DNA from: Malassezia japonica
Taxonomy: Eukaryota; Basidiomycota; Malasseziomycetes; Malasseziales; Malasseziaceae
NCBI RefSeq assembly: GCF_029542785.1
Contig: NC_083373.1
Location: forward strand, 124,001 to 188,000
Direction of reading: 5' to 3'
DNA: 64,000 nt
Each line of letters begins with the position of its first letter. The first letter of the stretch is position 1. Positions 38,387-59,464 of this stretch are shown here, in pieces. Position numbers and translations under genes: made by a program. The notes beneath the pieces are model-generated. The model saw only the letters and a list, made by a program, of their open reading frames with translations, was not told where the DNA came from and ran no database searches.

Positions 38387-39360
38387 CTACGAGAATACCT
38401 TGGAACGACTCAGCTCGCCCTCCTCGCCCTTGTACTTGTCGCGCTTGGCGCGCTGGCTCTGCACCTGCGTCACCTTGTTGGTGTATGCGCTGCCCTTGGC
38501 TCCGCGCGACGCACGGCGGAGCGCGGCCGGCGAGATGTACTCGGGGTTGTCAAAGATGGTCGGGCCACCGAACGAGCCCTCAAAGACGCGGATGGGGGTG
38601 AGGACCATACGGGGGCCGATCTCGACGAGCGTCGGCTCGGGCACGGCACCCTTGTCGGCACGCTTGTGCTTCTTCTCCTCGCCGACCGCCTCGGCAGCGG
38701 CATTTGCGCCGGGGTCCTTTTCAATCACTTGGTAGTTGCGGAACCAGATCTTGTTGTCGAGGATGCTGAACGAGATCACATGGTCCACAAACGGCTTCGC
38801 ACGGCGCGCGGTGCGCGGCACGGCAAACATTTGCGTGAGCATCTCCCTCAGGAGCTTCCAGTGCGGCTCCGAGTCAAACGCAGCGTCAAAGCTGAGGATA
38901 TGGCGCGAGCCCTTGAGGCAGTTTCCCGTCATCTTCAGCTCGTCCATCGTGTGGATGTTTTGCACTTGGAGCTTGGCAGACGGGCCGTTGGGCGTCTTGG
39001 AGAGCCACAGGTAGAGATCCTCGTGCCTCCGCGACTCAAAGTACATACAGTTCTGGGTTAGATGGGGCACGTACGTTGCAGTTGTTGAGCTCCGCAAGCT
39101 CGTTGAGAATCGAGAGATCCGACTTGGAGTCCAGCTTGGATTCTGTGTGAGTCGCGCGACGTACCTTTCTTGGCATGGGGGAGGAGTGCCTCGACGTCGT
39201 TCACGAGATGGCGCATGCGCGTGGTCACGCCGCGCGAGGGCAGCACAAGCACACGCTGCTTATTCCGGCGCGTCTGGGTGCCTTCGGCATCATTCTCAGA
39301 AGCACGCTTCTTGCCGGCGGCAGCGTCGCGCTTCAGCGCCGCACTGTACACGGTCGACAT
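38387..39360 (-). CDS. BRX1: Ribosome biogenesis factor BRX1
   Basis: Brix-domain protein needed for early 60S assembly and rRNA binding. Exons 39360-39165, 39142-39075, 39052-38387, 309 aa. Family text: GVTTRMRHLVNDVEALLPHAKK, LDSKSDLSILNELAELNNCN, LYLWLSKTPNGPSAKLQVQN, MTGNCLKGSRHILSFD and FVDHVISFSILDNKIWFRNYQ. Both introns are 22 nt. Intron 1 (39143-39164) is identical over all 22 bases to intron 2 of RPB10 at 59231-59252. The C-terminal tail is basic. Confidence 0.94.
39143..39164 (-). repeat. 22-nt intron identical to RPB10 intron 2
   Basis: Begins GTACGTCGCG and ends ACTCACACAG. It matches 59231-59252 at all 22 positions in the same sense, while both flanking exon bases differ, so identity stops exactly at the splice junctions. 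Confidence 0.85.
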
Positions 39361-39405
39361 GGCGCTGGAGAAGGCTGCAGCCTCGCCGACTTTTTTTGGC
39401 TACGG

Positions 39406-39411
39406 CACGTG
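39406..39411. promoter_or_regulatory. CACGTG box upstream of BRX1
   Basis: CACGTGA in the 284-bp divergent spacer, 46 bp before the BRX1 start and 234 bp before CBP4. Confidence 0.45.
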
Positions 39412-39644
39412 ACGCTGGCGGCCCTTGCGAGGCCGTGCGGAACTGATGCGCTTCCGCCTTGCTGGGGGGATGCCGCAGGGCACGTACGGCATCCGACGAC
39501 GTAGGATGCATTCCGTAGCAGAACTATGAGATCAGGACGAAAGCGCGATGCAGAGAGGCCGACCCAAGTCATATTGGGATGCTGCGTAAATAGCCATTGC
39601 TGACTGGCTCTTCGTGGAGGTCGCCTCGCCACCACAAACTTGTC

Positions 39645-39977
39645 ATGGCCGGCGGCGCACGCAACTGGACGCGCGCCTTTGTTGGCGGCTCGATCATCAT
39701 TGGTATTGGATATGCGCTGCTGAAGTGTACGTACACGGTTCTGACCGTCCAGACAACACCCCTTCCGAGCAGGAGCTGTACAACGTACGTGTGCACACCA
39801 CTAACCCTCCTAGTCGCTCTCGCCCGATCTCAAGCGCGAAGTCGACCAGAGGCGGAGGCAGCTTGCTGACGCAAAGCGCAGCGAGGTCCTCAAGCAGCAG
39901 CACAAGGAGGTGCGTGTGTGCGACTAACGCAGATTGCCGCGCAGCAGGACACGGCCAAGCCCAACTGGTCCAAGTAG
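39645..39977 (+). CDS. CBP4: Cytochrome bc1 assembly factor CBP4
   Basis: Small inner-membrane protein that stabilises cytochrome b during complex III assembly. Four exons (39645-39726, 39753-39784, 39814-39909, 39933-39977) encode 84 aa. N-terminal helix FVGGSIIIGIGYALLKY is followed by the CBP4 motif TPSEQELYNSLSPDLKREVD and a charged coiled coil ending KPNWSK. Introns of 26, 29 and 23 nt are slightly longer than most here and carry the same CTGAC/CTAAC element. Without splicing no coherent protein exists, so the gene is easily missed by simple frame finding. Confidence 0.88.
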
Positions 39978-40371
39978 ACGCGATAGCTATGGGAGAATGC
40001 ATTTGCGCAGGGGCGTGCAGCATGTACTTATGTCTCGTGTGTGTGGTGCACGTATCTGAGAGGCGTCGAGGCGCCGCTCCATTCCACACCGTACCGTGTC
40101 GTATCTGACCACGCCTCTCCCGTATTTCGCCCCCCACTATCGCGAGCACAGCACTCTATGCTCTTTGCACACAACAAGAGAAACACCACACCAGTCACTT
40201 ATGGGCAGATATATTTTGGATTCACAAAGACTTGCAGTCTCTGGGGCATAAAGTTGGAGGTACAGACAGGGTGAAGAAACGGGTGCAGACCACGCTTGTC
40301 CTCAAGTAGTGGCCAAGTACCCTAATTGCGGCACCACCAACATCCGAATTGCGTACGCTAGGCGCACACTT
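39978..40371. other. 394-bp convergent spacer
   Basis: Lies between the 3' ends of CBP4 and RPS23. No coding frame with family resemblance and no tRNA-like fold were recognised. It contains one perfect 9-bp inverted repeat (40058-40066 and 40111-40119). It is long for this genome, where most convergent pairs are separated by about 10-30 bp. Confidence 0.7.
40058..40119. repeat. Inverted repeat, possible hairpin
   Basis: GAGAGGCGT at 40058-40066 pairs perfectly with ACGCCTCTC at 40111-40119 around a 44-nt loop. It could be a 3'-UTR structure of RPS23 or CBP4, or part of a small RNA; no box motifs decide between these. Confidence 0.4.
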
Positions 40372-40880
40372 TTACGAACGGGGCTTCTCCTTCTTCTCCT
40401 TGAAGAGGGCAGCGAGACCGACACCGGCGACCTTCACGACCTTGAAACGAACACCGGGGATATCACCCTTCGCCTTACCCTTGCGACCGAAACCGGAGAT
40501 GAGCACCTCGTCGTTCTCTAAAAGGTCAGCTTCCGAAAAAAAAGCAAAATACGTACCGTCCACAAAGTTGAGACAGCCGTCGAGCGGCACGAAGGCAGAG
40601 ACCTTCTTACCGTTCTTGATGAGCTGAACACGGACACACTTGCGGATAGCCGAGTTGGGCTGCTTGGCCTCGACACCGATCTTCTCGAGAACGATACCCT
40701 TGGCCTGCGAGGCACCACCGGTAGGCGAGGTCTTGTAGAAGTTGCCGAGGGCGCGCTTCTTGAAGTGAGCGTCACTCTGAACTGTTAGTACAATGCTTTA
40801 TCATAAATACATACCCAGCGGTTGTCCCGGCGAGTGGTGACCTGCTTGCGCGCTGTGTACAATCCCCTAGGCTTACCCAT
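40372..40880 (-). CDS. RPS23: 40S ribosomal protein S23 (uS12)
   Basis: Decoding-centre protein of the small subunit. Exons 40880-40815, 40776-40557, 40517-40372, 143 aa. [40 protein letters not shown] and the invariant loop around KQPNSA are present, with [20 protein letters not shown] formed across intron 2. The introns are 38 and 39 nt, clearly longer than in neighbouring genes, with branch-like CTAAC/CTGAC 6-8 nt before the AG. The second intron is a multiple of three with no stop, so unspliced RNA would stay in frame. Confidence 0.97.
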
Positions 40881-40946
40881 CTTGGTGTGCTTGAGTTGGA
40901 GGAGGCAACCGCTCGCCACGCTATCTTTTTGCCCGGCCGGAAATTA

Positions 40947-40980
40947 CACGTGACATTCCAAAACTATAATCATACACGTG
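40947..40980. promoter_or_regulatory. Two CACGTG boxes in RPS23/RPL27 promoter
   Basis: CACGTGA at 40947-40953 and CACGTGA at 40975-40981, 28 bp apart, in the 178-bp spacer between two divergent ribosomal protein genes. A shared activator is likely; which factor is not shown by sequence. Confidence 0.6.
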
Positions 40981-41058
40981 ATCTACTAGCCTAGGGCCGC
41001 AAGGCCAGGCAAACTTCCTTACCTACGCTTCGTCAAGGCCTTGGTTAACGTAGTGAAT

Positions 41059-41700
41059 ATGCCCAAGATTTACAAGCCCGGGAAGGTTGCGGTCGTCCTG
41101 CAGGGTCGGCACGCTGGTAAGAAGGTATGTTGAAAGACGTTGCGAGAGGGATCGTGTGCGCCTTGGTTGTTTGCGCTGCCATGTCATCTGGAAGGTGCCG
41201 TGATGACATGCTCCTAGTATGTCTGGCTCCTGCATTTCGGCTTGCGCGCAAAAACAGGACACACACTCCCTCTCTTGGAACAGCTACTAACCCTTCAGGT
41301 TGTCGTCATCAAGCAGCACGATGAGGGCAACAAGGAGCACGGCTTCCCCTACGTCATTGCCGCCGGCATTGAGCGCTACCCCCTCAAGGTGAACAAGCGC
41401 ATGGGTGCCAAGAAGCTCGCCCGCCGCAGCAAGATCAAGCCTTTTGTCAAGGTATGTTTTGTGTCTAACCCCAGGTGATCAACTACAACCACCTCTTCCC
41501 TACCCGCTACGCTCTTGAGCTCGAGGGTCTGAAGGGTGTTGCCAGCAACGACACCTTCAAGGAGGTGTCTCAGCGCGAGGCTGCCAAGAAGGAGGTCAAG
41601 AAGCTCTTTGAGGAGCGCTACCAGAGCGGCAAGAACCGGTGGTTCTTCACTCCTCTCCGCGTATGTACCTTGTGTCGATGCATGCTAACCTCAGTTCTAA
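41059..41700 (+). CDS. RPL27: 60S ribosomal protein L27 (eL27)
   Basis: Large-subunit protein, 136 aa, the usual family length. Exons 41059-41124, 41299-41451, 41475-41660, 41695-41700. [20 protein letters not shown] and [17 protein letters not shown] identify it. The last exon encodes only Phe plus the stop codon (TTCTAA); it is required because the family ends in LRF. Intron 1 is 174 nt, by far the longest in the window, with a classical CTACTAAC branch site; introns 2 and 3 are 23 and 34 nt. All donors are GTATGT. Confidence 0.97.
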
Positions 41701-41848
41701 ACGGATCGCTCTTTTCTTGGTTTATCCATGGACCTATCCGCGGCCACGGCCTTGTTTTATAGCTGGAGCGAGCTAGCTGGCTTGCAGCCGCAGGACAAAA
41801 ATAGCATGCCAATGACTGCGATCACTGGAAAGTGTCGTTTTTCTCCGA

Positions 41849-41863
41849 CGTCCCACGTGGCTT
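41849..41863. promoter_or_regulatory. CGTCCCACGTGGCTT element before MVD1
   Basis: A 15-bp element containing CACGTG (41854-41859), ending 15 nt before the MVD1 ATG. The same 15 bases occur at 44003-44017, 16 nt before the EMP70 ATG. Confidence 0.55.
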
Positions 41864-41878
41864 ACCTTCCCAAACAAG

Positions 41879-43153
41879 ATGAGTGTGCACCAGGCGACGT
41901 GCACCGCGCCGGTGAACATTGCGGTGGTAAAGTACTGGGGCAAGCGCGATACCAAGCTCATTCTGCCTACCAATGACAGTCTGAGTGTGACGCTCGACCA
42001 GGACCACCTGCGTACGGTGACCACGGCGCGTGCCGATGCGTCCTTCCAGCCCGGCGCACGCCTCTGGCTGAACGGCGTAGAAGAGGAGATCAAGGCGGAG
42101 GGCCGCCTGGATGCGTGCCTTGCCGAGCTGCGTCGCCTGCGTGCGGAGCGCGAGGCGGCGGACAGCTCACTGGAAAAGATGTCGGCGTGGGGCCTGCACC
42201 TCTGCTCGGAGAACAACTTCCCGACGGCCGCCGGCCTCGCGTCGTCCGCGTCGGGCTTCGCGGCGCTCGCCGTGACGGTCGCGGAGCTGTACGGCCTGAG
42301 TGATGTGCTCTCCCGCTCGGCGCTCTCGATGATTGCGCGCCGCGGCAGTGGCTCGGCGTGCCGCTCCGTCTTTGGCGGCTTTGTCGCCTGGGAGGGCGGC
42401 GAGAAGGCCGACGGTACCGACTCGCTTGCGGTCGAGGTCGCGGAGCGCGACCACTGGCCCGAGCTCGACGTGCTGATCTGTGTCGTGAACGACGGCAAGA
42501 AGGGCACGTCGTCGACGAGCGGCATGCAGCGCACCGTGCAGACCTCGCCGCTGCTGCAACACCGTATCAAGCACGTCGTGCCCGAGCGCATGCAAAAGAT
42601 GCGCGAGGCGATCGCCAAGCGCGACTTTGCGCTCTTTACCGAGGTCACGACCGCCGACTCGAACGACTTCCACGCGTGCTGCCTCGACACGGCCCCGCCG
42701 ATCTTTTACATGAACGACACCTCGCGTGCGATTGTGATGGTGGTCGAGGAGCTGAACCGCGCGCGCGCCGAGGAGGGCAAGGATCCGATCGCGGCCTACA
42801 CCTTTGACGCGGGCCCCAATGCGGTGCTCTACGTGCGCAAGGGCGACATGGACGTCGTTCTGCGCACTGTGCGCCACTACTTCCCGGATGCCGACTTTGA
42901 CGACACATTCAACCTGCTCGGTGCCGGCGCCGGCGCGTCGCACCGCGGCGAGGAGAGCAAGCAGGAGCTGCCGACGCTCCCTGCGTCCTTCAACAAAGAC
43001 GTCGTACCGGTGCACCCCACGGGCAGCGTGCGCCGCATGATCCACACGCGCGTCGGCGACGGTCCCCGCGTGCTCGAGCGCGGCCTCGGCAAGGAGTCGC
43101 TCCTGAACGAAGAGGGTCTGCCGCTGCGTCTGCAGCGCGCCAAGCGCGCCTAA
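41879..43153 (+). CDS. MVD1: Mevalonate diphosphate decarboxylase
   Basis: Makes isopentenyl diphosphate from mevalonate diphosphate, feeding sterols and isoprenoids. Intronless, 424 aa. GHMP-kinase-superfamily fold with APVNIAVVKYWGKRD at the N-terminus, NDSLSVTLD, ENNFPTAAGLASSASGFAAL (phosphate loop), RGSGSACRSVFGGFVAWEGG and TFDAGPNAVLYV. The catalytic Asp region ICVVNDGKKGTSSTSGM is intact. ATG at 41879 opens MSVHQATCTAPV. The C-terminal 40 residues are basic. Confidence 0.97.
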   Translation: MSVHQATCTAPVNIAVVKYWGKRDTKLILPTNDSLSVTLDQDHLRTVTTARADASFQPGARLWLNGVEEEIKAEGRLDACLAELRRLRAEREAADSSLEKMSAWGLHLCSENNFPTAAGLASSASGFAALAVTVAELYGLSDVLSRSALSMIARRGSGSACRSVFGGFVAWEGGEKADGTDSLAVEVAERDHWPELDVLICVVNDGKKGTSSTSGMQRTVQTSPLLQHRIKHVVPERMQKMREAIAKRDFALFTEVTTADSNDFHACCLDTAPPIFYMNDTSRAIVMVVEELNRARAEEGKDPIAAYTFDAGPNAVLYVRKGDMDVVLRTVRHYFPDADFDDTFNLLGAGAGASHRGEESKQELPTLPASFNKDVVPVHPTGSVRRMIHTRVGDGPRVLERGLGKESLLNEEGLPLRLQRAKRA

Positions 43154-43202
43154 GTACTACGTAGCGTGACTGGGAAGCAAGCGATAGTGCACCAAGACTG
43201 GG

Positions 43203-43986
43203 TTAATACAACAACGTACGCTTTTCGATCGCCGCACGCAGCCCGTCGTTGTCGATGCCGCGCGTGCGCTGGATGCGCTCGCCGAGCTCGTCGCGCGTCT
43301 GCGGGGGCGCCGGCGCGTCCGGCGCGCTCGCCTGGGCATGGGGGAGCGGTGGCGCGAACCGCTCGCGCTCGGTGCAGTCGACGAGCGGGTGGCGCGTCGC
43401 GTGCTCGATCCACGGCCCCCGCCAAATCTCGTTGAGGACGCCGCGCAGGGTCATGCCTGCCGTGCCCGGGATCGCGCTGGAGCTCGCGAGGTTGCCGAGC
43501 GGCCCTTTGGACGCGTCGCGCTGCGTCGGCGGGTCCGTGATCATGACAAACGTATACATCGTCGGCGTCTGCAGGTGCGAGAGGGTATAGGTCGACGTCG
43601 AGAAGTTGTAAAACTGCTCGCTCTTCCCCCCGAGCTTTCGCACGAGGTTGCGGAGGGAGTAGACGACGCCATAAATCAGCTTCGCCTCCTGGTCGAACGG
43701 GAGGAGCGTGCTGGCGGGCGCATCGCCCACCTCGCGGCTCACACCGGGCAGCGCGTCGCCGGCCGGGCGCAGGGCCGTGGTGCCCGCCTCGCCCTTGTCC
43801 TCGGTGGAGCCGCCGCCGACGCGCTGGAGCGTCGCGCCGATCGACGAGGTAAAGGACGCAGCGCCGCCGGACGCGCCTTGCTGGTACACATGCGACCAGT
43901 CCTGGTGGTAGATCGCCTCACAGTGCCGGTCAAAGATCCACAGCGAATAGACCTGGGTAAGCTGCGCCGCGCACCTTAAGTGCCAT
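43203..43986 (-). CDS. BET5: TRAPP core subunit BET5/TRAPPC1
   Basis: Longin-like subunit of the TRAPP tether for ER-to-Golgi traffic. Exons 43986-43975 and 43952-43203, 253 aa. The first exon has 12 nt (MALK); the 22-nt intron joins it to VYSLWIFDRHCEAIYHQDW, the family N-terminus. The core continues after a 60-residue low-complexity insert with LPFDQEAKLIYGVVYSLRN and TPTMYTFVMITDP, LRGVLNEIWRGPWIE. A Pro/Ala-rich segment follows before the C-terminal end. It is longer than the yeast protein (159 aa) because of these inserts. Confidence 0.85.
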
Positions 43987-44002
43987 CGTCTTGGGGCCCA
44001 AG

Positions 44003-44017
44003 CGTCCCACGTGGCTT
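44003..44017. promoter_or_regulatory. CGTCCCACGTGGCTT element before EMP70
   Basis: Identical to the 15 bases at 41849-41863, with nearly the same spacing to the start codon. Located in the 47-bp divergent spacer shared with BET5. Confidence 0.55.
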
Positions 44018-44033
44018 TCTCCGACTTCGACGG

Positions 44034-45976
44034 ATGTTGCGTGCGCTGCGTGTGGTGTTACTTGCGGCGGCGTGCGCTGCGCCGGGCTGGGCATGGTACC
44101 TGCCCGGGAGTGCGCCGCGCTCTTTCAAAAGCGGCGACGCGGTACCTTTTCAAGTGAACGCGCTGCAGCCCATGTCGGGCGCGACGCCCGTGCATGGGCT
44201 GGTGAGCTACGACTACTACGATGCCCGCCTCGGCTTCTGCAAGCCGGCGAACGGGCCACAGGCGCAGAGCGGGAGCCTCGGCAGTATCCTCTTTGGCGAC
44301 CGTATCTACAACAGTCCGATCGAGATCGCGATGCTGAAGAACCAGTCGTGCGTCAAGATCTGCGAAGAAACGGCCACGACCGAGCAGGCGGCGTTTATCA
44401 ATGAGCGCATCACGGAGCGCTACGGCGTGAACTGGATGGTCGACGGGCTGCCCGTTGCCGATGCGGGCCTCACGAGCGTCGACGGAACGATCCGTGCCAA
44501 CTCGGTCGGCTTCGCGCTCGGGAGCATCCTCGACGCGGAGCTACACCGCCTGCCGACGCCGGCGCTGTACAACCACTACCGCCTGAACGTGTCGTACCAC
44601 GAGCGCGGCCCGAACGAGTTCCGTGTCGTGGGCGTGAATGTGATTCCCATGTCGCGTCACTCGCTCCCGAACGGCCTCGGGGGGCCGGTGCAGTGCGACG
44701 CGACGCAGCCCATGTTTCTCTCGCCGAACGCGACGACGCCCGTTGCATACACCTATGATGTCGTCTGGACGCCGAGCAGCACGCCGTGGGCTACGCGCTG
44801 GGACGCCTATCTCCACGTCGTCGACCCGCGCATCCACTGGTACTCGCTGCTGAACTCGCTGGCGATTGTCGCGCTGCTCTGCGTGCTGGTCGCGCTGGTG
44901 ATGGCGCGTGCGGTGCGCCGCGACATTTACCGCTACAACGCGATCGACCTCACCGAGGACATCCAGGAGGACTACGGCTGGAAGCTCGTCCACGGCGAGG
45001 TGTTCCGCCCGCCCTCGTCGCCGATGCTGCTGAGCATCATGGCCGGCACGGGCGCGCAGCTACTGGCCATGGCGGTCGTGACGCTGTTCTTTGCGCTACT
45101 GGGCTTCCTCAGCCCGTCGAACCGCGGCTCGCTCGCGACGATCATGATTGTCACCTGGACGCTCTTTGGCTTCATCTCGGGCTGGGTCAGCGCAAAGGTG
45201 TACGCGAGCTTCGACGGGGAGCAGTGGCGCCGCAACATGGTGCTCACGGCGCTGCTCTTCCCCTCGCTCATCTTTGGCGTGATGAACCTGCTGAACCTCT
45301 TCCTCGTGTTTAACCAGTCGGCCGGCGCAGTGCCGTTCGGCACGCTCCTCGCGCTGGTCGCGCTGTGGTTTTTGATCAACATCCCCCTGTCCTTCCTCGG
45401 CTCGTACCTTGGCCTGCGCTCGGGCGCCTTTTCGCACCCAGTGCGCGTAAACCAAATCCCACGCCAGATCCCCCCGACGCAGTGGTACCTGCGCCCATGG
45501 CCCGCAGCGATCCTCGCAGGCATCCTGCCGTTTGGCGCGGCGTGGCTCGAGCTCTTCTTTATGATCAACTCGCTCTTTGGTAACCGGGTGTACTACGCGT
45601 TTGGCTTCTTGACGCTGACGTTTGGCGTCACCGCGGCGGTACGTACTTTTTCTGACGCAGACGACCGCGACGGTGAGCATCCTCGCATGCTACTTCCACC
45701 TCTGTGCGGAGGACTACCGCTGGCATTGGCGCGCGTTCATCACGGGCGGCGCCAGCGCGTTCTGGCTCTTTGCCTACGGTGTACGTATTTTTTTTTCTGA
45801 CCCAGCTCTTTTACTGCTACACGCGCCTGAACCTGCCGGATATTTCGAGCCAGATCCTGTTCCTGGGATACCTCTTTGTCATCTCGCTGCTCGACTTTTT
45901 GCTCTTTGGCTTCATCGGCTTCATCGCATGCTACCTGTGCGTCAAGACGATTTACAGTCACATCCGCGTAGATTAA
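44034..45976 (+). CDS. EMP70: TM9-superfamily endosomal/Golgi protein
   Basis: Nonaspanin with a signal peptide (MLRALRVVLLAAACAAPGWA), a lumenal domain beginning WYLPGSAPRSFKSGD, and nine C-terminal membrane spans. Exons 44034-45638, 45661-45780, 45806-45976, 631 aa. Family text: FGDRIYNSPIEIAMLKNQSC, EDYGWKLVHGEVFRPP, and the tail ending KTIYSHIRVD, a COPI/COPII-type sorting end. Introns are 22 and 25 nt. In yeast these proteins affect copper handling and adhesion; here the role is inferred from family. Confidence 0.92.
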
Positions 45977-45979
45977 TAG

Positions 45980-45985
45980 CACGTG
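45980..45985. promoter_or_regulatory. CACGTG box before GLN4
   Basis: CACGTGA three bases after the EMP70 stop and 16 nt before the GLN4 ATG, in a spacer of only 25 bp. Confidence 0.5.
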
Positions 45986-46001
45986 AGTTGTCGCCTCGAT
46001 T

Positions 46002-48527
46002 ATGGCGCCGAAGCTGGACGTGAACGACCCGCAGGTCGCACGGCTGTTGGAGCTCTTTTCCAAGATCTCTCTTACAGGCCAGCGTGCGCAGGACACGGTG
46101 AAGAATGCCAAGTATGCTGCCTCGCTCGAGCAGGTCATCACGTCGCTGCACCTCGACGAGGCGAACCTCGACGCAAAGACCAGCTCGCTGGTCGTCGTCG
46201 CCGCGTCGAACGGCTGCGACCTCGCCGAGGCGAAGCGCGCGTACGTCGTGCAGCGCATCGTCAAGGGCGACCTGAAAAGTACCGACCAGGTCACGGCCGC
46301 GCTCAAGTTTGTCGGCGCGCACGACGCGATCGACGACAACGAGTTTGACGAAGCGTGTGGTGTCGGCGTCACAATCTCGCCGGAGCAGTGCCGCACCGCC
46401 GTGCAGGCCTACATGGACACGCACAGCGAGGAGCTGAGCGCGGTGAACGGCTGGCCAAAGATGTCGGCCGCCATGGGCGCTGTGCGCTCGGACGGCGCGA
46501 TGCGCTGGGCGAGCGCCGCGGACGTCAAGACCGCCGTCGAGGCGGAGCTCACGGCGCGCTTCGGCCCTCGGAGCGCCGCGCCGAAAAAGAAGGCCGAGCC
46601 CAAAGCCGCGGCTGCGCCCAAGGCCAAGGCCGAGCCGCAGCAGGCGGCGCGCCCTGACGCCATGTTCCAGGAGGGTTTCCTGGCGAACCTGCACAAGCCT
46701 GGCGGCAACCCCCAGATCTCGGAGCGCCTGCGTGATGAGCACCTAAAGGCGACGAACGGCTCTGTGATGACGCGATTCCCCCCGGAGCCGAACGGCTTCC
46801 TGCACATTGGGCACTCCAAGGCGATTGCCGTCAACTTTGGCTACGCGCGCTTCCACGGCGGCCTGTGCTACCTGCGCTTTGACGATACGAACCCCGAGGC
46901 AGAGGAGGAAAAGTACTTTACGTCGATCCTCGAGACCGTGCGCTGGCTCGGCTTTGAGCCGTTCAAGATCACCTACTCGTCCGACTACTTCCAGCGTCTG
47001 TACGAGCTTGCGGTCAACCTAATTGAGCGTGGCCTCGCGTACGTCGACCACTCGACCGGCGAGGAGATCCGGGCGCAGCGCGGCGGTCCTGAAAAGGGCG
47101 AGCGCAAAGAGAGCCCGTGGCGCAACCGCCCGGTGCAAGAGTCCTTGGACGAGTTCCAAAAGATGAAGGACGGCAAGTACCGCCCCGGCGAGGCGACGCT
47201 GCGCATGAAGCAGAACGTGCTTGGAAGCGGCAACCCCCAGATGTGGGACTTGATTGCGTACCGCGTGCTCGATGCGCCCCACCACCGCACCGGCGCGACG
47301 TGGCGCATGTACCCCACCTATGACTTTACGCACTGCTTGGTCGACAGTTTCGAGAACATTTCGCACTCGCTGTGCACCACCGAATTTATTCTCTCGCGCG
47401 AGTCGTACGAGTGGCTCTGCGACGCGCTCGAGGTGTACAAGCCCCGCCAGAGCGAGTACGGCCGGCTGTCGATCGAAGGCACGGTCATGTCCAAACGCAA
47501 GATGCTCAAGCTGGTCCAGGGCGGCTACGTCGACGGCTGGGACGATCCCCGTATGTACACGTTGATTGGTCTGCGCCGCCGCGGTGTGCCCCCGGGCGCC
47601 ATCCTGTCGTTTGTGAGCTCGCTGGGCGTGACGACCAACAACTCGACGATCCAGACGAACCGCTTTGACCAGAGCGTGCGCCAGTACCTCGAGATGGACA
47701 CTCCGCGCCTGATGATGCTCGTCAAGCCGCTCAAGATCACGATCGAGAACTTGCCCGACGACTACTTCCTCGAGATCGAAAAACCGCTGCACCCCAAGGT
47801 ACCGGCGATGGGCACGGCCAAGGTCCCCTTTACCAAGACCGTGTACATTGACGCGTCCGACTTCCGTACCGAGGACGCGCCGGACTACTTCCGTCTCGCG
47901 CCCGGAAAGCGCGTCGGCCTCTACCAAGTCCCGCACCCGATCGTCTGCACGTCGTTCAAGACGAACGCTGACGGGACGCCCTCGGAGCTGATCTGCACCT
48001 ACGACGAGGGCGGCGTGAAGCCCAAGACCTACATCCAATGGGTCGCCCAGCACGCACCGAGCAAGAGCCCGGTGCATGTAAAGGAGGCGCGCTACTTTTA
48101 CAACCTCTTTACCTCGGAGAACCCCGCGGGAGAGGAAAACTTCCTCGACTGCATCAACCCGACCTCGCGCGAGGTGTTCAAGGACGCGATGCTCGAGCCT
48201 GCGTTCTACGATGTGGCGCGCGCCGCGCTTGCGAACGCCAAGGAAGCCGTCGCCGAGCGCCAGCGCACCGCCGCGAAGCAGACCGAGCAGGCGCTCGGCA
48301 AGGAGCGCGCGGCGGAGGCCGCGCACAATACCGACGCGCTCCAGGCGACCGAGTCGTCGACCATCGGTAAGGAGTGCATCCGCTTCCAGGCGATGCGTGT
48401 CGGTTACTTTGCTGTGGACCACGACTCGGCGCTCTCGCTCTTTGGCGACGCGCCGCCCGAGACCCTCTATTTGAACCGCATCGTCTCCCTGAAGGAGGAC
48501 GCGGGGAAAGCCGCTCAGGCCAAGTAG
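46002..48527 (+). CDS. GLN4: Glutaminyl-tRNA synthetase
   Basis: Class I enzyme charging tRNA-Gln. Intronless, 841 aa. The eukaryotic N-terminal two-part helical domain (about 1-190) is followed by an Ala/Lys linker, then the catalytic core with the HIGH signature PNGFLHIGHSKA, FDDTNPEAEEEKYF, the KMSKS equivalent VMSKRKM, and the C-terminal beta-barrel anticodon domain (GKRVGLYQVPHPIVC). Start codon MAPKLDVNDPQVARLL follows a 25-bp spacer after EMP70. Confidence 0.97.
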   Translation: MAPKLDVNDPQVARLLELFSKISLTGQRAQDTVKNAKYAASLEQVITSLHLDEANLDAKTSSLVVVAASNGCDLAEAKRAYVVQRIVKGDLKSTDQVTAALKFVGAHDAIDDNEFDEACGVGVTISPEQCRTAVQAYMDTHSEELSAVNGWPKMSAAMGAVRSDGAMRWASAADVKTAVEAELTARFGPRSAAPKKKAEPKAAAAPKAKAEPQQAARPDAMFQEGFLANLHKPGGNPQISERLRDEHLKATNGSVMTRFPPEPNGFLHIGHSKAIAVNFGYARFHGGLCYLRFDDTNPEAEEEKYFTSILETVRWLGFEPFKITYSSDYFQRLYELAVNLIERGLAYVDHSTGEEIRAQRGGPEKGERKESPWRNRPVQESLDEFQKMKDGKYRPGEATLRMKQNVLGSGNPQMWDLIAYRVLDAPHHRTGATWRMYPTYDFTHCLVDSFENISHSLCTTEFILSRESYEWLCDALEVYKPRQSEYGRLSIEGTVMSKRKMLKLVQGGYVDGWDDPRMYTLIGLRRRGVPPGAILSFVSSLGVTTNNSTIQTNRFDQSVRQYLEMDTPRLMMLVKPLKITIENLPDDYFLEIEKPLHPKVPAMGTAKVPFTKTVYIDASDFRTEDAPDYFRLAPGKRVGLYQVPHPIVCTSFKTNADGTPSELICTYDEGGVKPKTYIQWVAQHAPSKSPVHVKEARYFYNLFTSENPAGEENFLDCINPTSREVFKDAMLEPAFYDVARAALANAKEAVAERQRTAAKQTEQALGKERAAEAAHNTDALQATESSTIGKECIRFQAMRVGYFAVDHDSALSLFGDAPPETLYLNRIVSLKEDAGKAAQAK

Positions 48528-48533
48528 CACGTG
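48528..48533. promoter_or_regulatory. CACGTG box before TSC1
   Basis: CACGTGA directly abutting the GLN4 stop codon and 18 nt before the TSC1 ATG, the same geometry as in front of GLN4. Confidence 0.5.
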
Positions 48534-48551
48534 ATTCAACGCCTTGCCGTC

Positions 48552-51011: not shown

Positions 51012-51042
51012 ATAGTCATGCCATGAAATGGATGTATCGATA

Positions 51043-51857
51043 CTACGCGTCTGCCGGCAGTGTCGCCCCGAGAATGGCCCCCCACTTGTTCATTAATACT
51101 CCTGCGCGCTCGCGGAAGTGAAACTGCTCGTCCTTGGGAATCTCGGGAAGCTGGTGGATGCGCTTCATCACCTTGCCGATCTTGGTCGCCTTAAGCTGCT
51201 CCGGTGTGATCTCGTCGTACGCCTCGACGATCTTGAGGGTGGCGTCCTGCGCCTCCATATCCTCCGGCTTGATCACGCCGTCCTTGCTGAGGAACGCACG
51301 CTGCAGCTTGTGGCGCCATTCGCGCACTTTTTTCGTCTGCGGGTCCAGCTCCTCTTCGTGCTCCTCCTTTGGCTCCTCTTTCGGCGCCTCTTCCGCCTCC
51401 TCCTTTCGCTTCTTGCGGCTGGCCGGCGCGGCGGGCTGCTTGCGCTTCTTGGTCGTGTCCTCGTCGTCGGCCGTTGCGAGTGCCGCCTCGTGGTCGTGCA
51501 CCGCCGCGGTCTGCTTCGCGTTCCAGCCGTGCGGGTCCTTGGCGATCTTGTACGCCTTCAGCAGATCGCTCGACTTTTTGTGCGACGCAATAAACGCGTC
51601 GATGCTCTCCTCCGTCAGGTGCGTCAAATCGCGCGCTGTCGCCCAGTGGCTGTGTGAGCTGCAAAAACGTACTAGTCCGCTGCCGGGAAGAAGCGAATCG
51701 TGAAGAGATTCGCGTTCTTGCTCGCCGGTTTTTCGCGGCACACGGCCGAAGGCACATCGGCATCATCCATAATGATCCCCGGCCACGCCGGGAACCCTTT
51801 GATTTTTGCCAGAACAACGTCGCCTACCTTGTACGACTCTTCTTCGACCACGGCCAT
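51043..51857 (-). CDS. PWWP protein with LEDGF-like C-terminal domain
   Basis: Chromatin reader, 263 aa, exons 51857-51673 and 51649-51043 (23-nt intron). The PWWP domain (about 8-95) reads YKVGDVVLAKIKGFPAWPGI, then FTIRFFPAADYHWATARDL across the intron. A Lys/Glu-rich linker follows, then a helical domain (WRHKLQRAFLSKDGVIKP; LKATKIGKVMKRIHQLPEIP) resembling the TFIIS-N/integrase-binding domain of LEDGF/HRP2. PWWP domains bind H3K36-methylated nucleosomes; a role with transcribed chromatin is inferred. I cannot name a single yeast orthologue (IOC4 and Pdp3 are the nearest ideas). Confidence 0.8.
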
Positions 51858-51901
51858 CGCTAAGCGGGGTCGATCGCGTGTGGCGCGGCATGCCGCAGTG
51901 T

Positions 51902-51907
51902 CACGTG
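51902..51907. promoter_or_regulatory. CACGTG box, PWWP/TOA1 promoter
   Basis: TCACGTG in the 162-bp divergent spacer between the PWWP gene (start 51857) and TOA1 (start 52020). Confidence 0.45.
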
Positions 51908-52019
51908 CTCATCAGATCGGGCGGCGCCGTCGCTCGCGCGGTTCGTCACGACGTCGGGCGTGTCGAGCAGCGGCGAGTGCATGCGCTGGGACAGTTTCCA
52001 GTTGCGGCAGTGAGCTGCG

Positions 52020-52617
52020 ATGAGCAACAAAGTAGTTTCATTGACATTCCGACACATCATCGACGATGTGATCGCGAATGTCCGCCAAGACTTTGAAGAT
52101 ATGGGCATCGAGAAGGAGGTGCTCGAGGAGCTGCAGCGGTCCTGGGAGGCGAAGCTCGTTGCGACGCAGGTGACCGAGTTCGACGGAGCCGGCGGCAGCT
52201 CGGCCGCACCGGGCGCGCGCCCGCCCGTGCAATACACCACGACGCCAGGCGTGGAGCCCGCCACGGCGCGCAACACCCGGGTCAAGTCCGAGCCAAAAGA
52301 CGACGCACAGGCCGACGAGAAAGAGAAGCCGGCGGCAGGGAAAAAGCGGAAGCACGAGGACGAGGACGAGGAGGCCAGCAACGAAATTGGGTCCGACCTC
52401 GACGACTCGGAGGAGGAGGACTTTGAGGGGAACGAGGATATGATGCTGTGTCTCTACGACAAGGTGCGTGTCCCTAACTAATCCAGGTCCAGCGCGTAAA
52501 GAACAAGTGGAAGTGCGTTCTGCGCGACGGCGTCGCCTCTATCGGCGGCCGCGACTACCTCTTTTCCAAGTGCAACGGGTAGGTACCCCACGCTCACCCA
52601 GCGAGTTCGAGTGGTAG
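52020..52617 (+). CDS. TOA1: TFIIA large subunit
   Basis: General transcription factor subunit that stabilises TBP on the TATA box. Exons 52020-52463, 52487-52578, 52602-52617, 183 aa. The N-terminal four-helix-bundle half reads FRHIIDDVIANVRQDFEDMG; the linker is acidic (KHEDEDEEASNEIGSDLDDS); the C-terminal beta-barrel half LCLYDKVQRVKNKWKCVLRD to KCNGEFEW is assembled across two 23-nt introns. The final exon supplies only the last four residues plus one base. It is short for the family because the central linker is reduced. Confidence 0.94.
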
Positions 52618-52633
52618 CACGTGGCACCACGTG
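52618..52633. promoter_or_regulatory. Paired CACGTG boxes before DPL1
   Basis: CACGTGGCACCACGTG immediately after the TOA1 stop codon. Two palindromes start 10 bp apart, as at 20918-20933; the 16-mers differ at one base. The DPL1 ATG lies 31 nt downstream. Confidence 0.55.
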
Positions 52634-52664
52634 AGACGACGTTCCCGGGTAACCCCTAGCGATC

Positions 52665-54343
52665 ATGGGTGGCTCGGGCGGCTCCAGCAGCAACTGGACC
52701 AACAGTATAGTGACGTACGACAATGGTGTGTTGCCTATAGACTAATTAAAGCTCGTACGGTTGCCTTGGTATGGGTCGTGCTGCACTTTGGCCGCCGCTG
52801 GCTCCGCGCGATCCGTGCAGAGGGTCTGACGGGTATCGTGCTCCAGGCGTACTCGGCCCTGGTGCAGCGCTTCGTGGGCCTCATGCTCAAGCTGCCCTCG
52901 AACAAGAGGCGCATGGACCGCGAGATGGGCGAGGCAACGACGACGCTCGAAAAGAGCCTCTTGCCCCCGTCGAGCGTGCCGACGGTGCGCACGCTGCCGG
53001 TGCACGGCCGCGACGAGGCGTGGATCGACAAGCAGCTCGCCGTACTGCAGCACCTCACCGGCGATGACAGCGGCGACTCGGAGCGCCAGTGGCGCGACGG
53101 CCACGTCTCCGGTGCGGTGTACCACGGCGGCGAGGAGCTGAACCGCGTGATCCTCGGTTGCTTTGCTCGCTTCCTCTTGTCCAACCCGCTGCACCCGGAG
53201 GTCTTCCCGGGTGTGCGTAAGATGGAGTCGGAAATCGTGGCGATGGCCCTGAGCATGTACAACGCGCCGCCAGGCGCCGCCGGCACCACGACCTCGGGCG
53301 GCACCGAGTCGATTCTGATGGCATGCAAGGCCGCGCGCGACTGGGGGCGCGCCGAGCGCGGAATCACCGAGCCGGAGATTGTGATCCCGACGAGCGCGCA
53401 CGTCGCCTTTGACAAAGCGGGCCAGTACTTTGGGCTCAAGGTGCGCCGCATCCCGGTCGACCGCATCACGCGCAAGGTCCGCATCGACGCGATGCACCGC
53501 GCGATCAACAGCCAGACGGTGCTGCTCGTGGGCAGTGCGCCCAACTTCCCCGACGGCATGATCGACGACATTGTCTCTATTGCCGCGCTCGCCAAACGCC
53601 ACGGCATCCTGTGCCATGTGGACTGCTGCCTCGGCTCGTTCCTTGTGCCGTTCCTCGACCGCGCGGGGTACGTCTCGGAGCCGTTTGACTTCCGTGTGGA
53701 TGGCGTTACGTCGATTTCCTGCGACACGCACAAGTACGGCTTCGGCCCCAAGGGTCTCTCGGTGGTGATGTACAGCACCGAGCGCATGCGCCGCTTCCAG
53801 TACTATGTCAACTCCAGCTGGGTCGGCGGTGTGTACGCGAGCCCGACGCTCGCTGGCTCGCGCCCCGGATCGATCATCGCCGCGACGTGGGCGGTGATGG
53901 TCGCCATGGGCCAGGACGGCTACACAAACTCTTGCAAGAGCATTGTCGGCGCTGCCAAGGACATTGAGCGCCGCGTGCGCCATGAGATCCCCGAGCTTAC
54001 CGTGCTCGGCAAGCCGCTCGTGAGCGTCGTGGCGATCGCCAGCGCCGGCACGCACAACATCTACGACGTGGGTGACCAAATGAGCAAGCGTGGCTGGCAC
54101 CTCAATGCGCTCGGTGGCGACGTGCCCGCGGTTCATCTCGCGTGCACGCGCCTGACGGTGCCGAGCGTGGACCAGTTCATTGCGGATCTCAAGGATGCGG
54201 TCGCGCACTCGCGCACTAAACCTGCGAAGCCCGGTACGATGGCGACGGTCTATGGGCTGGGCCAGAGCTCGGCGGTGGGCCCGATGCTCATCGGCGAGAT
54301 GGCTTCGCGCTTCGTGGATACGCTGTACAAGGTACAGCCGTAG
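52665..54343 (+). CDS. DPL1: Sphingosine-1-phosphate lyase
   Basis: PLP enzyme of the ER that cleaves phosphorylated long-chain bases, ending sphingolipid breakdown. Exons 52665-52725 and 52752-54343, 550 aa. A luminal N-terminus (WTNSIVTYDN) precedes a membrane helix (VALVWVVLHFG). The PLP domain has TTSGGTESILMACKAARDWG, HVDCCLGSFLVPFLDRAG and the Lys-bearing motif SISCDTHKYGFGPKG. The 26-nt intron has an atypical GTGTGT donor and ACTAAT near the acceptor; removing it gives a continuous protein from the first ATG. Confidence 0.93.
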
Positions 54344-54355
54344 CCCTAAAATACA

Positions 54356-56739
54356 TCATTGCACTGCGTTAGTTTTTTCTTCACGTACAGTAGAGCACTT
54401 GAACATCGCTCGTGGCAAACGCCAGGCCGCAGTGGGGACACTTGCGCTGCCTGGTCTGGATCCGCGCGTTGACGCACTGCTCGCAGAAGGTGTGCAGGCA
54501 GCGCGTAATGATCCGGTCGCGGTAGCGCTCCTTGCACGCCGAGCACTTGAGGAGCGAATCGAGGTACTCGAGCTGCGTATTATCGTCGCCGCGCTTGCGC
54601 GGCGCACCGGCGTTGGCATCGGCGACCTTGCGCTTCAGACGGCTCACCTCCTTGTCGAGGATCGCGGCGCGCTCCTCGGCGCGCACCTTCGCGCCGCTCT
54701 CTTCTGTGATCGTCGCGAGGTGCTGCGTGACGAGCTGCTCGGCGGTGGACTTGGCGCGCTCGGCCTCGGCCGCCTTGCGGCGCAGCACCGCACGGTCGCG
54801 GTCGACCTCGGCGAGCTTCGTCGTGTGCGCCTGCAGGCCGCGGCGGAGGAGCGTGATCTCCTTTTCGGCCTGCGTCAGCTGCTGCCCGAGGCCCTTCTCG
54901 GTCTCGGTGTAGCGCTCAATAACCTTGGCCTGGCGCTCGGCGCTGCGCGCAAGCGTGCGCTTCTCGGCATCGAGCGCATCCTTGGCGCGCATCGCGGCAA
55001 AGTACTTGTTGTCCGCTTTGGACTTTTCGGTGGTGAGGCGCAGAATTTTGTCCTCGAGCTTGGCGAGGTTGACGAGCTTTGCATTCGCCTGCTTCTCGAG
55101 CTGGTCATAGGCGCTGCTCAGGCGGTCGATCTCGTCGTAAAGAGTGGTGGTCGAGGCGCCCGACGCCTGGATCTCGAGGCGCGCTTTCTGCAGGCTGTCT
55201 TGCAGCGAGGCCCAGCGCGCCGCGACATCGTCCGCCGACGCAACATCCTCCGACGGCGTGCCGTCGTCGAGAAGCGCACGGAGGCGCGCAAGCTCGGCGT
55301 GCGCGTCGCTCACGTCGTGCAGCGCGAGCGCCGCCTTTTCCTCCTCGGCCTTTTTCAGCGCGGCCTCGAGCGCAGGCACGGCGTCCGTGCCGGGCTCGCT
55401 CTCGCTCAGCACCTGCACCGCGTGCGCGTCGCCTCGCAGCGCGGCGACTTGCAGTTGGAGACGATGCGCCTGCCCCTTCAAGGCCTCGATCCGCTCGTCT
55501 TTCGGCGCAAGGAGCGCCTTGAGCTCGTCGACCTGCGCAAACTTGACCGTGTCGCGTGCGCGGCGCTCGAGCATCTCGGCGTTGAGCTCGTCGCGCTGGC
55601 CACGCAGGCGCACAATGTCTGCATCGCGCGCCTTGAGCTGCTTCTGGAGCTCGTCGCTGTGTGTATTGGCCTGCGTCGAGGTCTGGTGCTGGAACTCGAG
55701 GCGGAACTCACGCAGCTCCTCGTTCTCCTTGTCCAGCGCAGCGTACGCGCTCCGCAGCCGCTCGGCCTCGTGCTGCAAAAAGACCATTTCCGCCTGTAGC
55801 TCGTGGTAGAGGGGGTGTGCGTTAATGCGCTCGTCCGGCAGCGACGTGAGTTGGAACGAGGTCGCGGCGAGCTCTTGCTTCACCCCGCCGAGCTCCTGGC
55901 GCACCTCGCCTATCTCGTCGAGGCGCGCCTTTGCGAGCTCGCGGAGCGTGACGAGCTCCTCTTCTGTCGCCGCATTCACCGCCGGGGCCTGCGCGTTTTC
56001 TGCGCGCTTTTCCGCCTGGGCCTTCTCCGCCTCGGCCGCGGCGATCTGGGCGGCCTCTGCGTCGCGCTGCGCCTTGCCGAGGGGGTCTTCGATCGTGCGG
56101 AGCGTGTCGCTTGCGGCGCGGTCGCGATGCTTTTCGGCAATGCGCAGCTGCTCTGTCACGCGGCTCGCCACCGCCTGTAGCCGCGCGAGCTCGGCATGGG
56201 CCGCGGCGAGCGTCTGGCGCAGCGCGCCCGACTCGGCCGCGAGCTGTGCGATACGTGTCTGGGCGGCGCCCACGTCGCTCGGCGCACGCGCGCCGTGCGC
56301 GGCGATGTGCGCAAGCACCTCACGCACGACCTGCGTGCGTGTCGCGAGCGCCGAAGCGTGCTCGGCCGCGCTCTGCTCGAGCGCCAGCGGCACGGCACCG
56401 ACCAAGGCGCTGCGGAGCCCTTCGCCGAGCACGTGCTCGTCGACGCCAGTCGTCCGGAGCGTTTCTACAAGCTGCGTTAGTCGCAGTACGCACCATATCC
56501 CAAAACTCGTTCACTGCGAGCACGCTCTTGCGCAGGCCCGCGACGTCGGCTTCGAGCGCATGCGCGGATTCCGTCGCACGCGCCGCGTCGCGTTTTGCTT
56601 CGCGCATCGCGCGGTAGATCGCCTCCTTGCGGAACTGCTCGAGGCCCGCATACGCAGGGCTCTCATCCTCTTCGCTCAGGTGCATGCGCTTCGCATCCCC
56701 CGCGTCCGGCGCGTCCGCCTGCGCCCGCTTGCGATCCAT
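54356..56739 (-). CDS. BRE1: E3 ubiquitin ligase BRE1
   Basis: RING ligase that, with Rad6, monoubiquitinates histone H2B. Exons 56739-56494, 56471-54389, 54363-54356, 778 aa. Nearly the whole protein is coiled coil; the C-terminal RING (about 725-763) reads CSACKERYRDRIITRCLHTF then CEQCVNARI and CPHCGLAF. The last intron (54364-54388, 25 nt, GTACGT to CTAACGCAG) leaves an 8-nt final exon, giving the ending DVQVLYLQ; unspliced RNA would stop at VLYCT. The spliced ending is closer to the usual family tail. N-terminal MDRKRAQADAPDAGDAKR carries a basic nuclear signal. Confidence 0.9.
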
Positions 56740-56762
56740 GAGGGAGGAAAAGACGCGACAGT

Positions 56763-56768
56763 CACGTG
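56763..56768. promoter_or_regulatory. CACGTG box, BRE1/Mmc1-like promoter
   Basis: TCACGTG within the 37-bp spacer between two divergent start codons (56739 and 56777). Confidence 0.45.
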
Positions 56769-56776
56769 TTACGGGA

Positions 56777-58966
56777 ATGCTCCGTGCTCGATCCATGAGC
56801 CGACTGGGCCTGCGGGGACTGGGCCGCGTGCGCTGCGCGCCGCGTGCGCTGCGTGGCGGCCGCTGGGTCTCGTCCGTGACACCAGCGCTGGATGTGGGTG
56901 CGCTGCGCGGCACACTCCAAGGGACCGCGCAGCTCTTTGCGCAGGACTCGGCGTGGCACGCACGCTTGGACGCGGCGGACGTCGCGCTGGATGCGCCGAT
57001 GCGCGCGCGGCGCGTCGCGTTTGTAGGCGCCGCATCGAGCGGCACGGCGCAGGTCGTGGATGCGCTCCTTGCCGAGCCGCACGATGCTGGCGTCTCGCGG
57101 GCGCTCCAAGCTAAGAGCGAGGCGGCGGCGCGCACCGACCGCGGCCTCGTGATCCGGTACGGCGAGCAAAGCAGCGCAGATGACACGCTCCTTGTCCCGC
57201 TGCCGTGGCTGCGCGACGGGCTGGAAATCGTCGAAATGCTCGACCCGACCGACAGCGCCGAAAGCCTCGAGACGCTCTACGGCGCGGACGCCGTTTTCTT
57301 CGTGACGGACCTCGAGGCGATGCAGGGCGTGCTCGCACCGGTGCCGGCACAGCGTACCTTGGCGCTGATCGAGCGCTTTGCGGGCAAGCCCGAGACATCG
57401 GTACTGATCAATCTCCCATGGCGCGCAGTCGGGCCCGACACTCCGGCGCCGGCAGGCGCAAGCGTCGCCAAGGCGGCCGAGATGCCAGACTGGGCGGCAC
57501 TCGGGCGCTCGGTCCGCGCCACACTCACTCCACGCATCCTCAACCTGCTTGCGTCGCAAGCCGCGCCGCTCGGCAGCGCGCCGCCGGGCGTCCATGTCGT
57601 CTCGTCCAGCCTCGCGGCGCATGCCAAGGCGCTGCTCGCGCCGCCGCCCGCGACAGCTGCGCCGGACGGCGCGGCGCGTACGCCGCCTGTGCGCGACGCG
57701 TGGCTCGCGTTTGCGGACGACTTTCGCGCAGCGCGTTTTCCGCCGCTCTATAATGCCGTCGTGCGCCCGTCGGACCCCACGACGCGCGTTGCGTACCTCG
57801 CTCGCGCTGCGATCGAGCAGGCGTCCGCCGCTGAGGCCGCCGAGGAAGAGCGCCTGCGCCTTGCCAACGGCTACGCCACCGTCCTTGCGTCAAGCGCCGA
57901 GCTGGCCATGAGCACGCTCGCGGAAAAGATTGTGCCGGACAGCGCGGGCAGCGAGCTTCCGTCGCCGGCGCATGTGCGCAAAGGCGACGCGTCCGCGTCA
58001 GTCGCCGGCTTCCTCGCCGACTCGCGCCATGAGGTCGAGGGGACGCTCGCGTCGCGCTTTGCGTGGTACAAGCTGCCGATGCGCATCGACGAGCTGCGCC
58101 TCGCCCTGCTCTACGCGGTCGGCCGTAGCTTTGGCACGGACCAAGAGGTGCGCCTCGCGTACGAGGCCGGGCAGCTGCGCGCGCTCGCAGCCACCGAGAC
58201 ACAGCGCACCGCCGACTCGCTCGCGGACCTCGCGCGGGGCGAAGAGCAGGCGCGCGCACAGCGCGACTCGGGCGCACTTGCAGACGCTGAGCCGTCGTTT
58301 AACAGTGCTACGCTGCAAAATGCGCTCGGTGCGTTCCGCGACGCACAGCTCGCGCCGATCCTCTCGCCGACGTGCCTCTCGGAGCCGGTCGTCCGCCGGC
58401 GCCGCCAGCTGCTCGAGGCCGGGGGGCCGATCGACCAGCTGACGGCACGGGCGCAGCGCGCGACGCTGCACGTCTATGCGTTCCTCGGCACGACGTACAC
58501 CCTGTGTGGGTACGGCGCACTGGCGCACAAGCGCCTGCACGTTGCAGCTCCGGCGGATGCGCCGCTGCCGGTGCAGACATGGGCCGACTTTTCTGCATCG
58601 TCCTGGACGCCATGGACGCCGCCCGCGTTCTTGAGCGAGCTTGCGGGCTATGCGGACGTGCTGGCCATTGCGCCGAGCACCGCGGGGGGGACGGCGCTGC
58701 TTGCGACCGCCGCCGCGGCGTGGTACCTGCAAGGGCGCTGGGCGAGCGCCAAGCGCAAGTTCTGGAAGGACTGGGACCGCATCGTTAGTGCCGTCGACCG
58801 CGACGCCAAGAGCGAGGTCACGGCGCTGCTCCGCTACGTGTTTGGCGCGCCGCTTGGCGCGTCGCGTGCGCTGCGTGATGCGGCTGTCGTGCGCGCGGTA
58901 GCGCACGAGGAGCGCGTCGAGCAGCTGCGCCGCGTACGTGCGGCGCTGCCGGACGAGCGGAAATAG
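56777..58966 (+). CDS. Mitochondrial Mmc1-like/degenerate P-loop protein
   Basis: Intronless, 729 aa. The N-terminus (MLRARSMSRLGLRGLGRVRC) is a strong mitochondrial leader. A Rossmann-like start RRVAFVGAASSGTAQVVDAL (about 75-95) has the shape of a P-loop but lacks the GK(S/T) ending, so GTP binding is doubtful. It continues with VFFVTDLEAMQGVL. The middle is helical (LANGYATVLASSAELAMSTL), and a hydrophobic segment near 635-655 (GTALLATAAAAWYLQGRW) may be a membrane anchor. This arrangement recalls the fungal Mmc1-type, dynamin-like inner-membrane proteins, but I recognise it only by architecture. Function should be treated as unproven. Confidence 0.5.
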   Translation: MLRARSMSRLGLRGLGRVRCAPRALRGGRWVSSVTPALDVGALRGTLQGTAQLFAQDSAWHARLDAADVALDAPMRARRVAFVGAASSGTAQVVDALLAEPHDAGVSRALQAKSEAAARTDRGLVIRYGEQSSADDTLLVPLPWLRDGLEIVEMLDPTDSAESLETLYGADAVFFVTDLEAMQGVLAPVPAQRTLALIERFAGKPETSVLINLPWRAVGPDTPAPAGASVAKAAEMPDWAALGRSVRATLTPRILNLLASQAAPLGSAPPGVHVVSSSLAAHAKALLAPPPATAAPDGAARTPPVRDAWLAFADDFRAARFPPLYNAVVRPSDPTTRVAYLARAAIEQASAAEAAEEERLRLANGYATVLASSAELAMSTLAEKIVPDSAGSELPSPAHVRKGDASASVAGFLADSRHEVEGTLASRFAWYKLPMRIDELRLALLYAVGRSFGTDQEVRLAYEAGQLRALAATETQRTADSLADLARGEEQARAQRDSGALADAEPSFNSATLQNALGAFRDAQLAPILSPTCLSEPVVRRRRQLLEAGGPIDQLTARAQRATLHVYAFLGTTYTLCGYGALAHKRLHVAAPADAPLPVQTWADFSASSWTPWTPPAFLSELAGYADVLAIAPSTAGGTALLATAAAAWYLQGRWASAKRKFWKDWDRIVSAVDRDAKSEVTALLRYVFGAPLGASRALRDAAVVRAVAHEERVEQLRRVRAALPDERK

Positions 58967-59195
58967 CATACAAGATGCGTACTATACTACAGACTAGACA
59001 GGCGACAATGTCGTGACATCCGGCAGGGAGGTCGGCGCTGCGGACGTGGCCGCGGTGCGGCCGTCGATGCAGCGTGCATCGCGCGCGGTCTTGCTCGCAC
59101 CCGCGCTGGGGCGGCCGTGCGGCCGCTTGCATGCGACACGGCGGCACCACCGCCTTTTATTTCGCCGGCGTGCGGCACAGTGCCTCTCTTGCCCC

Positions 59196-59464
59196 CTACG
59201 CAGGGAACGGATTCGACTTGCGCTCATGAACTGTGTGAGTCGCGCGACGTACTGTTGTAGTGCAGCAAGCGCTCGATGAGATCGACGTGCGTCAGGACCA
59301 TGCGACGGCAGCAGTAGCGCTGCAGCCCCAGCTCCGTGAGCGCCTCGCCTTCCGTGCGGCCCTCAATAAGGAGGGCGAGGTACGCATCCCACTTGTCGCC
59401 GACGACCTTGCCGCAGCTAAAGCACCGGACGGGAATGATCTGCGTGAGCCTCAGTACGTACCAT
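59196..59464 (-). CDS. RPB10: RNA polymerase subunit ABC10-beta
   Basis: Zinc-binding subunit shared by RNA polymerases I, II and III. Exons 59464-59462 (the ATG only), 59439-59253, 59230-59196, 74 aa. [20 protein letters not shown] and [19 protein letters not shown] contain the four zinc cysteines. The first intron (59440-59461, 22 nt) follows the ATG directly, so the start codon is the entire first coding exon; this is needed because the family starts MIIPVRCF. The second intron (59231-59252) is identical to BRX1 intron 1; splicing it gives the tail [14 protein letters not shown]. Confidence 0.93.
59231..59252 (-). repeat. 22-nt intron identical to BRX1 intron 1
   Basis: Same 22 bases as 39143-39164 in the same sense relative to transcription. 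The exon bases on both sides differ between the two genes. Confidence 0.85.

Follow-up and report, generated by a model that had tools for sequence, protein, structure and literature searches.

Why should two unrelated genes of a yeast carry, letter for letter, the same intron? The question is raised by a 64,000-nucleotide (nt) stretch of Malassezia japonica DNA (C4:124001-188000 of a 9-contig assembly of 8.43 Mb; hereafter the window), in which intron 1 of BRX1 and intron 2 of RPB10 agree at all 22 positions, both on the minus strand and exactly where the initial annotation had placed them. The shared 22-mer, GTACGTCGCGCGACTCACACAG as read on the minus strand, is called T below. Recent copying or selection on the whole intron had been put forward as the cause. 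We find that T belongs to a genome-wide population of introns with a floor at 22 nt, a stronger and more interesting pattern than the identity itself, and we consider, with a probability of nearly four in five, that this identity mostly reflects convergence within a crowded set of ordinary U2-type introns at minimum length.

Removal of the introns from the two genes (Table 1) yields products that match Brix (2e-49) and Pfam RNA_pol_N (1.5e-30), and the best PDB relatives of both proteins align without gaps across the T junction. The identity ends at the splice sites, as had been claimed, the exon flanks being different (G upstream and AATCC downstream for one copy, A and TTCAT for the other). 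No further match to T with up to three mismatches was found in the window, and 100 shuffles gave 0 matches. Among the window's 24 matches to the 22-nt intron pattern described below, between 0.007 and 0.015 identical pairs are expected. The view that chance identity is unlikely thus holds inside the window, but not genome-wide, where multiplication over the 132 windows of 64 kb in 8.43 Mb gives about one to two such pairs expected without copying.

The pattern GTNNGT-N6-RCTNAC-NYAG, 22 nt long, has 1,862 matches in the genome versus 5 for its reversed form, while a first search pattern with GTAAGT had 0 matches. Within 250 kb of C4 (GC content 61.3%), and with any base allowed at position 13, we counted 98 introns with exactly the 22-nt spacing; matches of 18-21 nt were near control level (8 vs 4), 23-nt introns numbered 24 over the two commonest spacings, and 18 introns were one base longer with the branch-to-end spacing unchanged. 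The population therefore has one dominant length and a sharp lower bound. Over 90 nt on either side of the 98 introns, the reading frame was open only when spliced in 23 cases, only when unspliced in 2, both ways in 70 and neither way in 3, which is the opposite lean to that of 5,000 random positions (396 only spliced, 647 only unspliced). With GT-AG ends, a branch motif and a frame restored by removal, these are predicted U2-type spliceosomal introns; the first base lies 16 nt from the presumed branch adenosine, from which 5 nt lead to the last base. We infer that the introns are spliced, that this adenosine is the branch point and that the floor is steric.

Of the 22 positions in such introns, 13 vary little or not at all, ten because the search pattern sets them and three more with one base at 79 to 94% (156 introns), leaving nine variable but biased positions (7-13, 16 and 19). 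Positions 7-12 lean to CGCGCG, itself the sixth commonest hexamer in the 250 kb at 6.6 times the mean hexamer count. The proposal of selection on the whole intron stands to the extent that most of the intron is constrained, in its length, in the spacing of its branch motif and at all but about nine positions. Our model is that introns have been pressed to a 22-nt minimum consisting of GTACGT, six loose bases, NCTNAC with the adenosine at position 17, and NCAG, and that two to three thousand of them would share only some 18,000 to 39,000 effective sequences, so that identical introns would arise in unrelated genes mostly by convergence.

How often identity is expected was estimated from 198 introns, comprising the first 100 plus-strand places of the genome pattern (A or G at position 13 only) and the 98 from C4 (any base), two T copies included; their column entropy is 17.1 bits. 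Two identical pairs were observed, T and its one-mismatch sibling ending in CCAG, compared with 0.47 expected from column shuffles, 0.83 from a first-order and 1.05 from a second-order model, and there were 21 one-mismatch pairs versus 9.5, 13.2 and 16.2, respectively. Genomes simulated with 3,300 introns, 12 for each model, contained on average 138 (independent), 214 (first-order) and 303 (second-order) identical pairs; this intron number is too high, 1,862 x 98/66 giving about 2,765, and rescaling to the latter leaves about 97, 150 and 213 pairs. Collision rates correspond to an effective space of about 18,000 to 39,000 sequences. Identity of two introns is consequently weak evidence of copying, since 22-nt introns crowd a small sequence space, and identical introns would be mostly convergent. 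The immediate surroundings of T fit this picture: 9, 19 and 67 introns lie at 0, 1 and 2 mismatches, compared with 4, 24 and 87 for a control, a T sibling picked for high multiplicity (for which 100 of 115 places were listed, the 87 being 115 minus 28).

The genome-wide search for exact copies, which had been suggested together with a check for coincidence with introns, returned nine copies in eight genes and 0 for the reversed control. All 9 look intronic, and the 22-mer is not common outside introns. Besides BRX1 and RPB10, the spliced flanks match the Glyco_transf_15 (two copies in one mannosyltransferase gene), TIP41, tubulin C-terminal, CHS5-like fn3/BRCT, DHHC and CUE/UBA families. A protein-family or PDB match spans the T junction for 7 of the 9, two of these matches being weak (CHS5-like, with BRCT_2 below cut-off, and TIP41, with a long insertion within the match); for tubulin and DHHC the matched domain does not include the junction. 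Exon base -1 is G at 7 of 9 copies and at 49% of the 98 introns. Two T-like sequences have the 5' splice site GTACGC rather than GTACGT (C2:849430-849451 and C7:169338-169359), so that some introns are probably absent from the counts based on the pattern.

Several observations weigh against convergence as the whole explanation. The ten fixed positions are imposed by a search pattern that misses departing introns. Under models fitted on 156 introns, two T copies among them, a set of 1,862 introns should contain T 0.2 times if positions are independent or 0.4 times with first-order dependence, where 9 were observed, and T appeared 0 to 2 times in the 36 simulated genomes, again from models fitted with two T copies included; the commonest sequence there reached 3-5, 4-7 and 5-10 copies under the independent, first- and second-order models. 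CGCGCG is found in 49 introns and GTACGT-N6-ACTCACACAG in 75, predicting 2.0 coincidences if independent; the hexamer occurs in 9 of these 75, compared with 3.1 expected within the 682 GTACGT-N6-ACTNAC introns (Fisher p 0.0018) and with 3 of 107 in the sister class ending in CCAG (p 0.029). Shuffling hexamers within the 75-intron class gave nine of any one hexamer in 0 of 2,000 trials, and under a first-order model whose fit included the copies, CGCGCG reached at least nine in 0.4% of 1,000 runs (mean 3.0). With CGCGCG excluded, the class had 12 identical pairs vs 5.1 expected (p 0.02), and two other intron classes had 25 vs 15.6 (p 0.06) and 6 vs 2.9 (p 0.08). Measured against the control's cloud, T exceeds its expected number of exact copies about threefold (Poisson 0.0047, using a hand-derived 3.1 = 4/87 x 67; Fisher, 9/95 vs 4/115, 0.066). 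The T-specific tests are all post hoc, and p runs from 0.002 to 0.07 by test. Furthermore, a few lie close together: the two in the mannosyltransferase gene are 239 nt apart, and within C2:849-850 kb there are three T-like introns, with 0, 1 and 2 mismatches. Finally, nine copies reach the count of four or more similar introns at which, in the accessible part of the source, an introner survey retained families (PMC9860276), but an intron of 22 nt in which 13 positions hardly vary has too little sequence for common descent to be established. The residual excess, about threefold, small and found post hoc, deserves reporting.

For this residue we favour a preference of higher order over copying. 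T could be a near-optimal substrate at minimum length, favoured independently in several genes, a tentative reading that is on balance doubtful and that overlaps with convergence. It draws on dependence between distant positions, which raises the T expectation. Positions 7-9 read CGC in 53 of 175 ACTCAC(A/C)CAG introns and in 10 of 100 GCTGACGCAG introns (p 9e-5), and C10 is associated with C19 (51 of 100 CCAG introns vs 14 of 75 ACAG), in both cases among the matches listed, which for two of the classes are 100 of 107 and 100 of 102 places; C11, like CGC at 7-9, goes with the ACTCAC branch motif. This coupling may, however, reflect base-composition differences between introns. A hairpin in the palindrome GTCGCGCGAC was rejected, its -2.3 kcal/mol (z +0.42) being no better than that of shuffles. 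Extended pairing with U6 was likewise set aside: the one U6 small nuclear RNA match genome-wide (80.8 bits; C9:407313-407417, minus strand) is canonical (GAACGAUACAGAGA), and by reading C7-G8 has no pairing match in it. Loss of a splicing factor was also discarded, given a U2AF-large-like frame (224 bits, below the 310-bit cut-off). A U1 search found nothing, and nothing in its controls either, and is hence uninformative.

Recent copying, whereby some of the nine T introns would share a single mobile or reverse-spliced ancestor (a very short introner-like element), perhaps with local duplication inside a gene, appears unlikely, even with nine exact copies vs about three expected and the neighbouring copies just described. 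The neighbour counts of T climb smoothly, not like those of a clone family, and they show no set of many near-identical copies standing apart from other introns, as introners would. In this respect the introner-like elements of Dothideomycetes offer both a likeness, in that their sequences recur exactly or almost exactly among genes that are not related, and a difference, as the nine copies here grade into a continuous background. Terminal matches compatible with target-site duplication are only 0-2 nt long at all 9 copies (mean 1.0 vs 0.62 in 98 other introns), and flanks are not similar (8.2 of 12 positions differ on average over 36 pairs, vs 8.9 in the sample). RNA-borne intron families need neither target-site duplications nor terminal inverted repeats. 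The two T introns of the mannosyltransferase gene differ in phase and flanks, and the 84 pairs of same-strand introns within 1 kb of each other are not significantly more alike than other pairs (6.38 vs 6.54 differences, permutation p 0.19), a comparison that lends no support to intra-gene homogenisation. Recent copying as the main cause is accordingly not upheld. It may still account for a few of the nine, given the excess and the pair within one gene, and two loci hold additional T-like introns; that part of the set is a true recent family, a mobile 22-nt spliceosomal intron spread by reverse splicing without target-site duplication, seems slightly less probable again. An origin of the set in gene paralogy or in repeats of the assembly is very improbable, nothing having been found in favour and the nine lying in eight different genes with different flanks.

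Table 1. Coding regions and introns of BRX1 and RPB10 in the window (window coordinates)
Feature	Position	Strand	Description
BRX1 coding region	38387..39360	-	309 amino acids with both introns removed; end coordinate derived from translation length
BRX1 intron 1	39143..39164	-	22 nt, GTACGTCGCGCGACTCACACAG; removal restores Brix-domain protein; best PDB alignment crosses junction
BRX1 intron 2	39053..39074	-	22 nt, GTACGTGCCCCATCTAACCCAG; architecture as intron 1, interior differs
RPB10 coding region	59196..59464	-	74 amino acids with both introns removed
RPB10 intron 1	59440..59461	-	22 nt, GTACGTACTGAGGCTCACGCAG; immediately 3' of start codon; interior differs from intron 2
RPB10 intron 2	59231..59252	-	22 nt; carries the T sequence of BRX1 intron 1 (GTACGTCGCGCGACTCACACAG); junction fits PDB RPB10 chains

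Some further observations concern the genes and their surroundings. The mannosyltransferase gene has putative exons of 12 and 17 nt between 22-nt introns (offsets -105 to -94 and 22 to 38 from a T copy, on its strand), and its PDB alignment runs on through the tiny-exon stretch; apparent spacings of 7 and 10 nt between 22-nt introns elsewhere (C7:497183-497189 and C2:193914-193923) are candidate exons. The window's glutaminyl-tRNA synthetase is 70 to 75% identical to proteins of M. vespertilionis, M. yamatoensis, M. nana and M. sp. CBS 17886, the best named match among the 120 proteins listed being that of M. vespertilionis (75%); protein clusters in the same list reach 100, 83 and 81%. M. slooffiae seems an improbable source, since a table of PMC7025860 gives it 66.31, presumably the GC percentage of its genome, compared with 61.3% in the 250 kb analysed here. 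An Rfam scan of the window gave no match, no related DNA was found in the viral and prokaryote collections, and no relative of BRX1 was found in the two collections scanned.

A floor on ultrashort introns is known in kind from nucleomorphs. Among ciliates, the available part of one source gives introns of 15 nt in Stentor and medians of 24-25 nt in Paramecium (PMC12862383), entire intron populations having been narrowed to a tiny length, as here; M. japonica differs in being a GC-rich basidiomycete yeast with a floor at 22 nt and constant spacing of the branch motif. For Malassezia itself, as far as the accessible portions of the sources go, introns are called very short in one review (PMC7426719), with a median of 30 nt and a mean of 37 nt in M. 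restricta and a median of 40 nt in M. arunalokei (PMC9241646), whereas means of 76-79 nt are given for M. globosa (PMC4634964). The annotation of M. restricta used lower length limits of 20 and 15 nt (PMC6473144), so it did not force the 30-nt median. In the portions available of the open-licence literature searched, there was no report of a 22-nt intron mode in Malassezia. Overall, the analysis puts numbers on why intron identity near the minimum length only weakly implies copying, and a fungus with a 22-nt floor offers an opportunity to study the lower size limit of spliceosomal introns.
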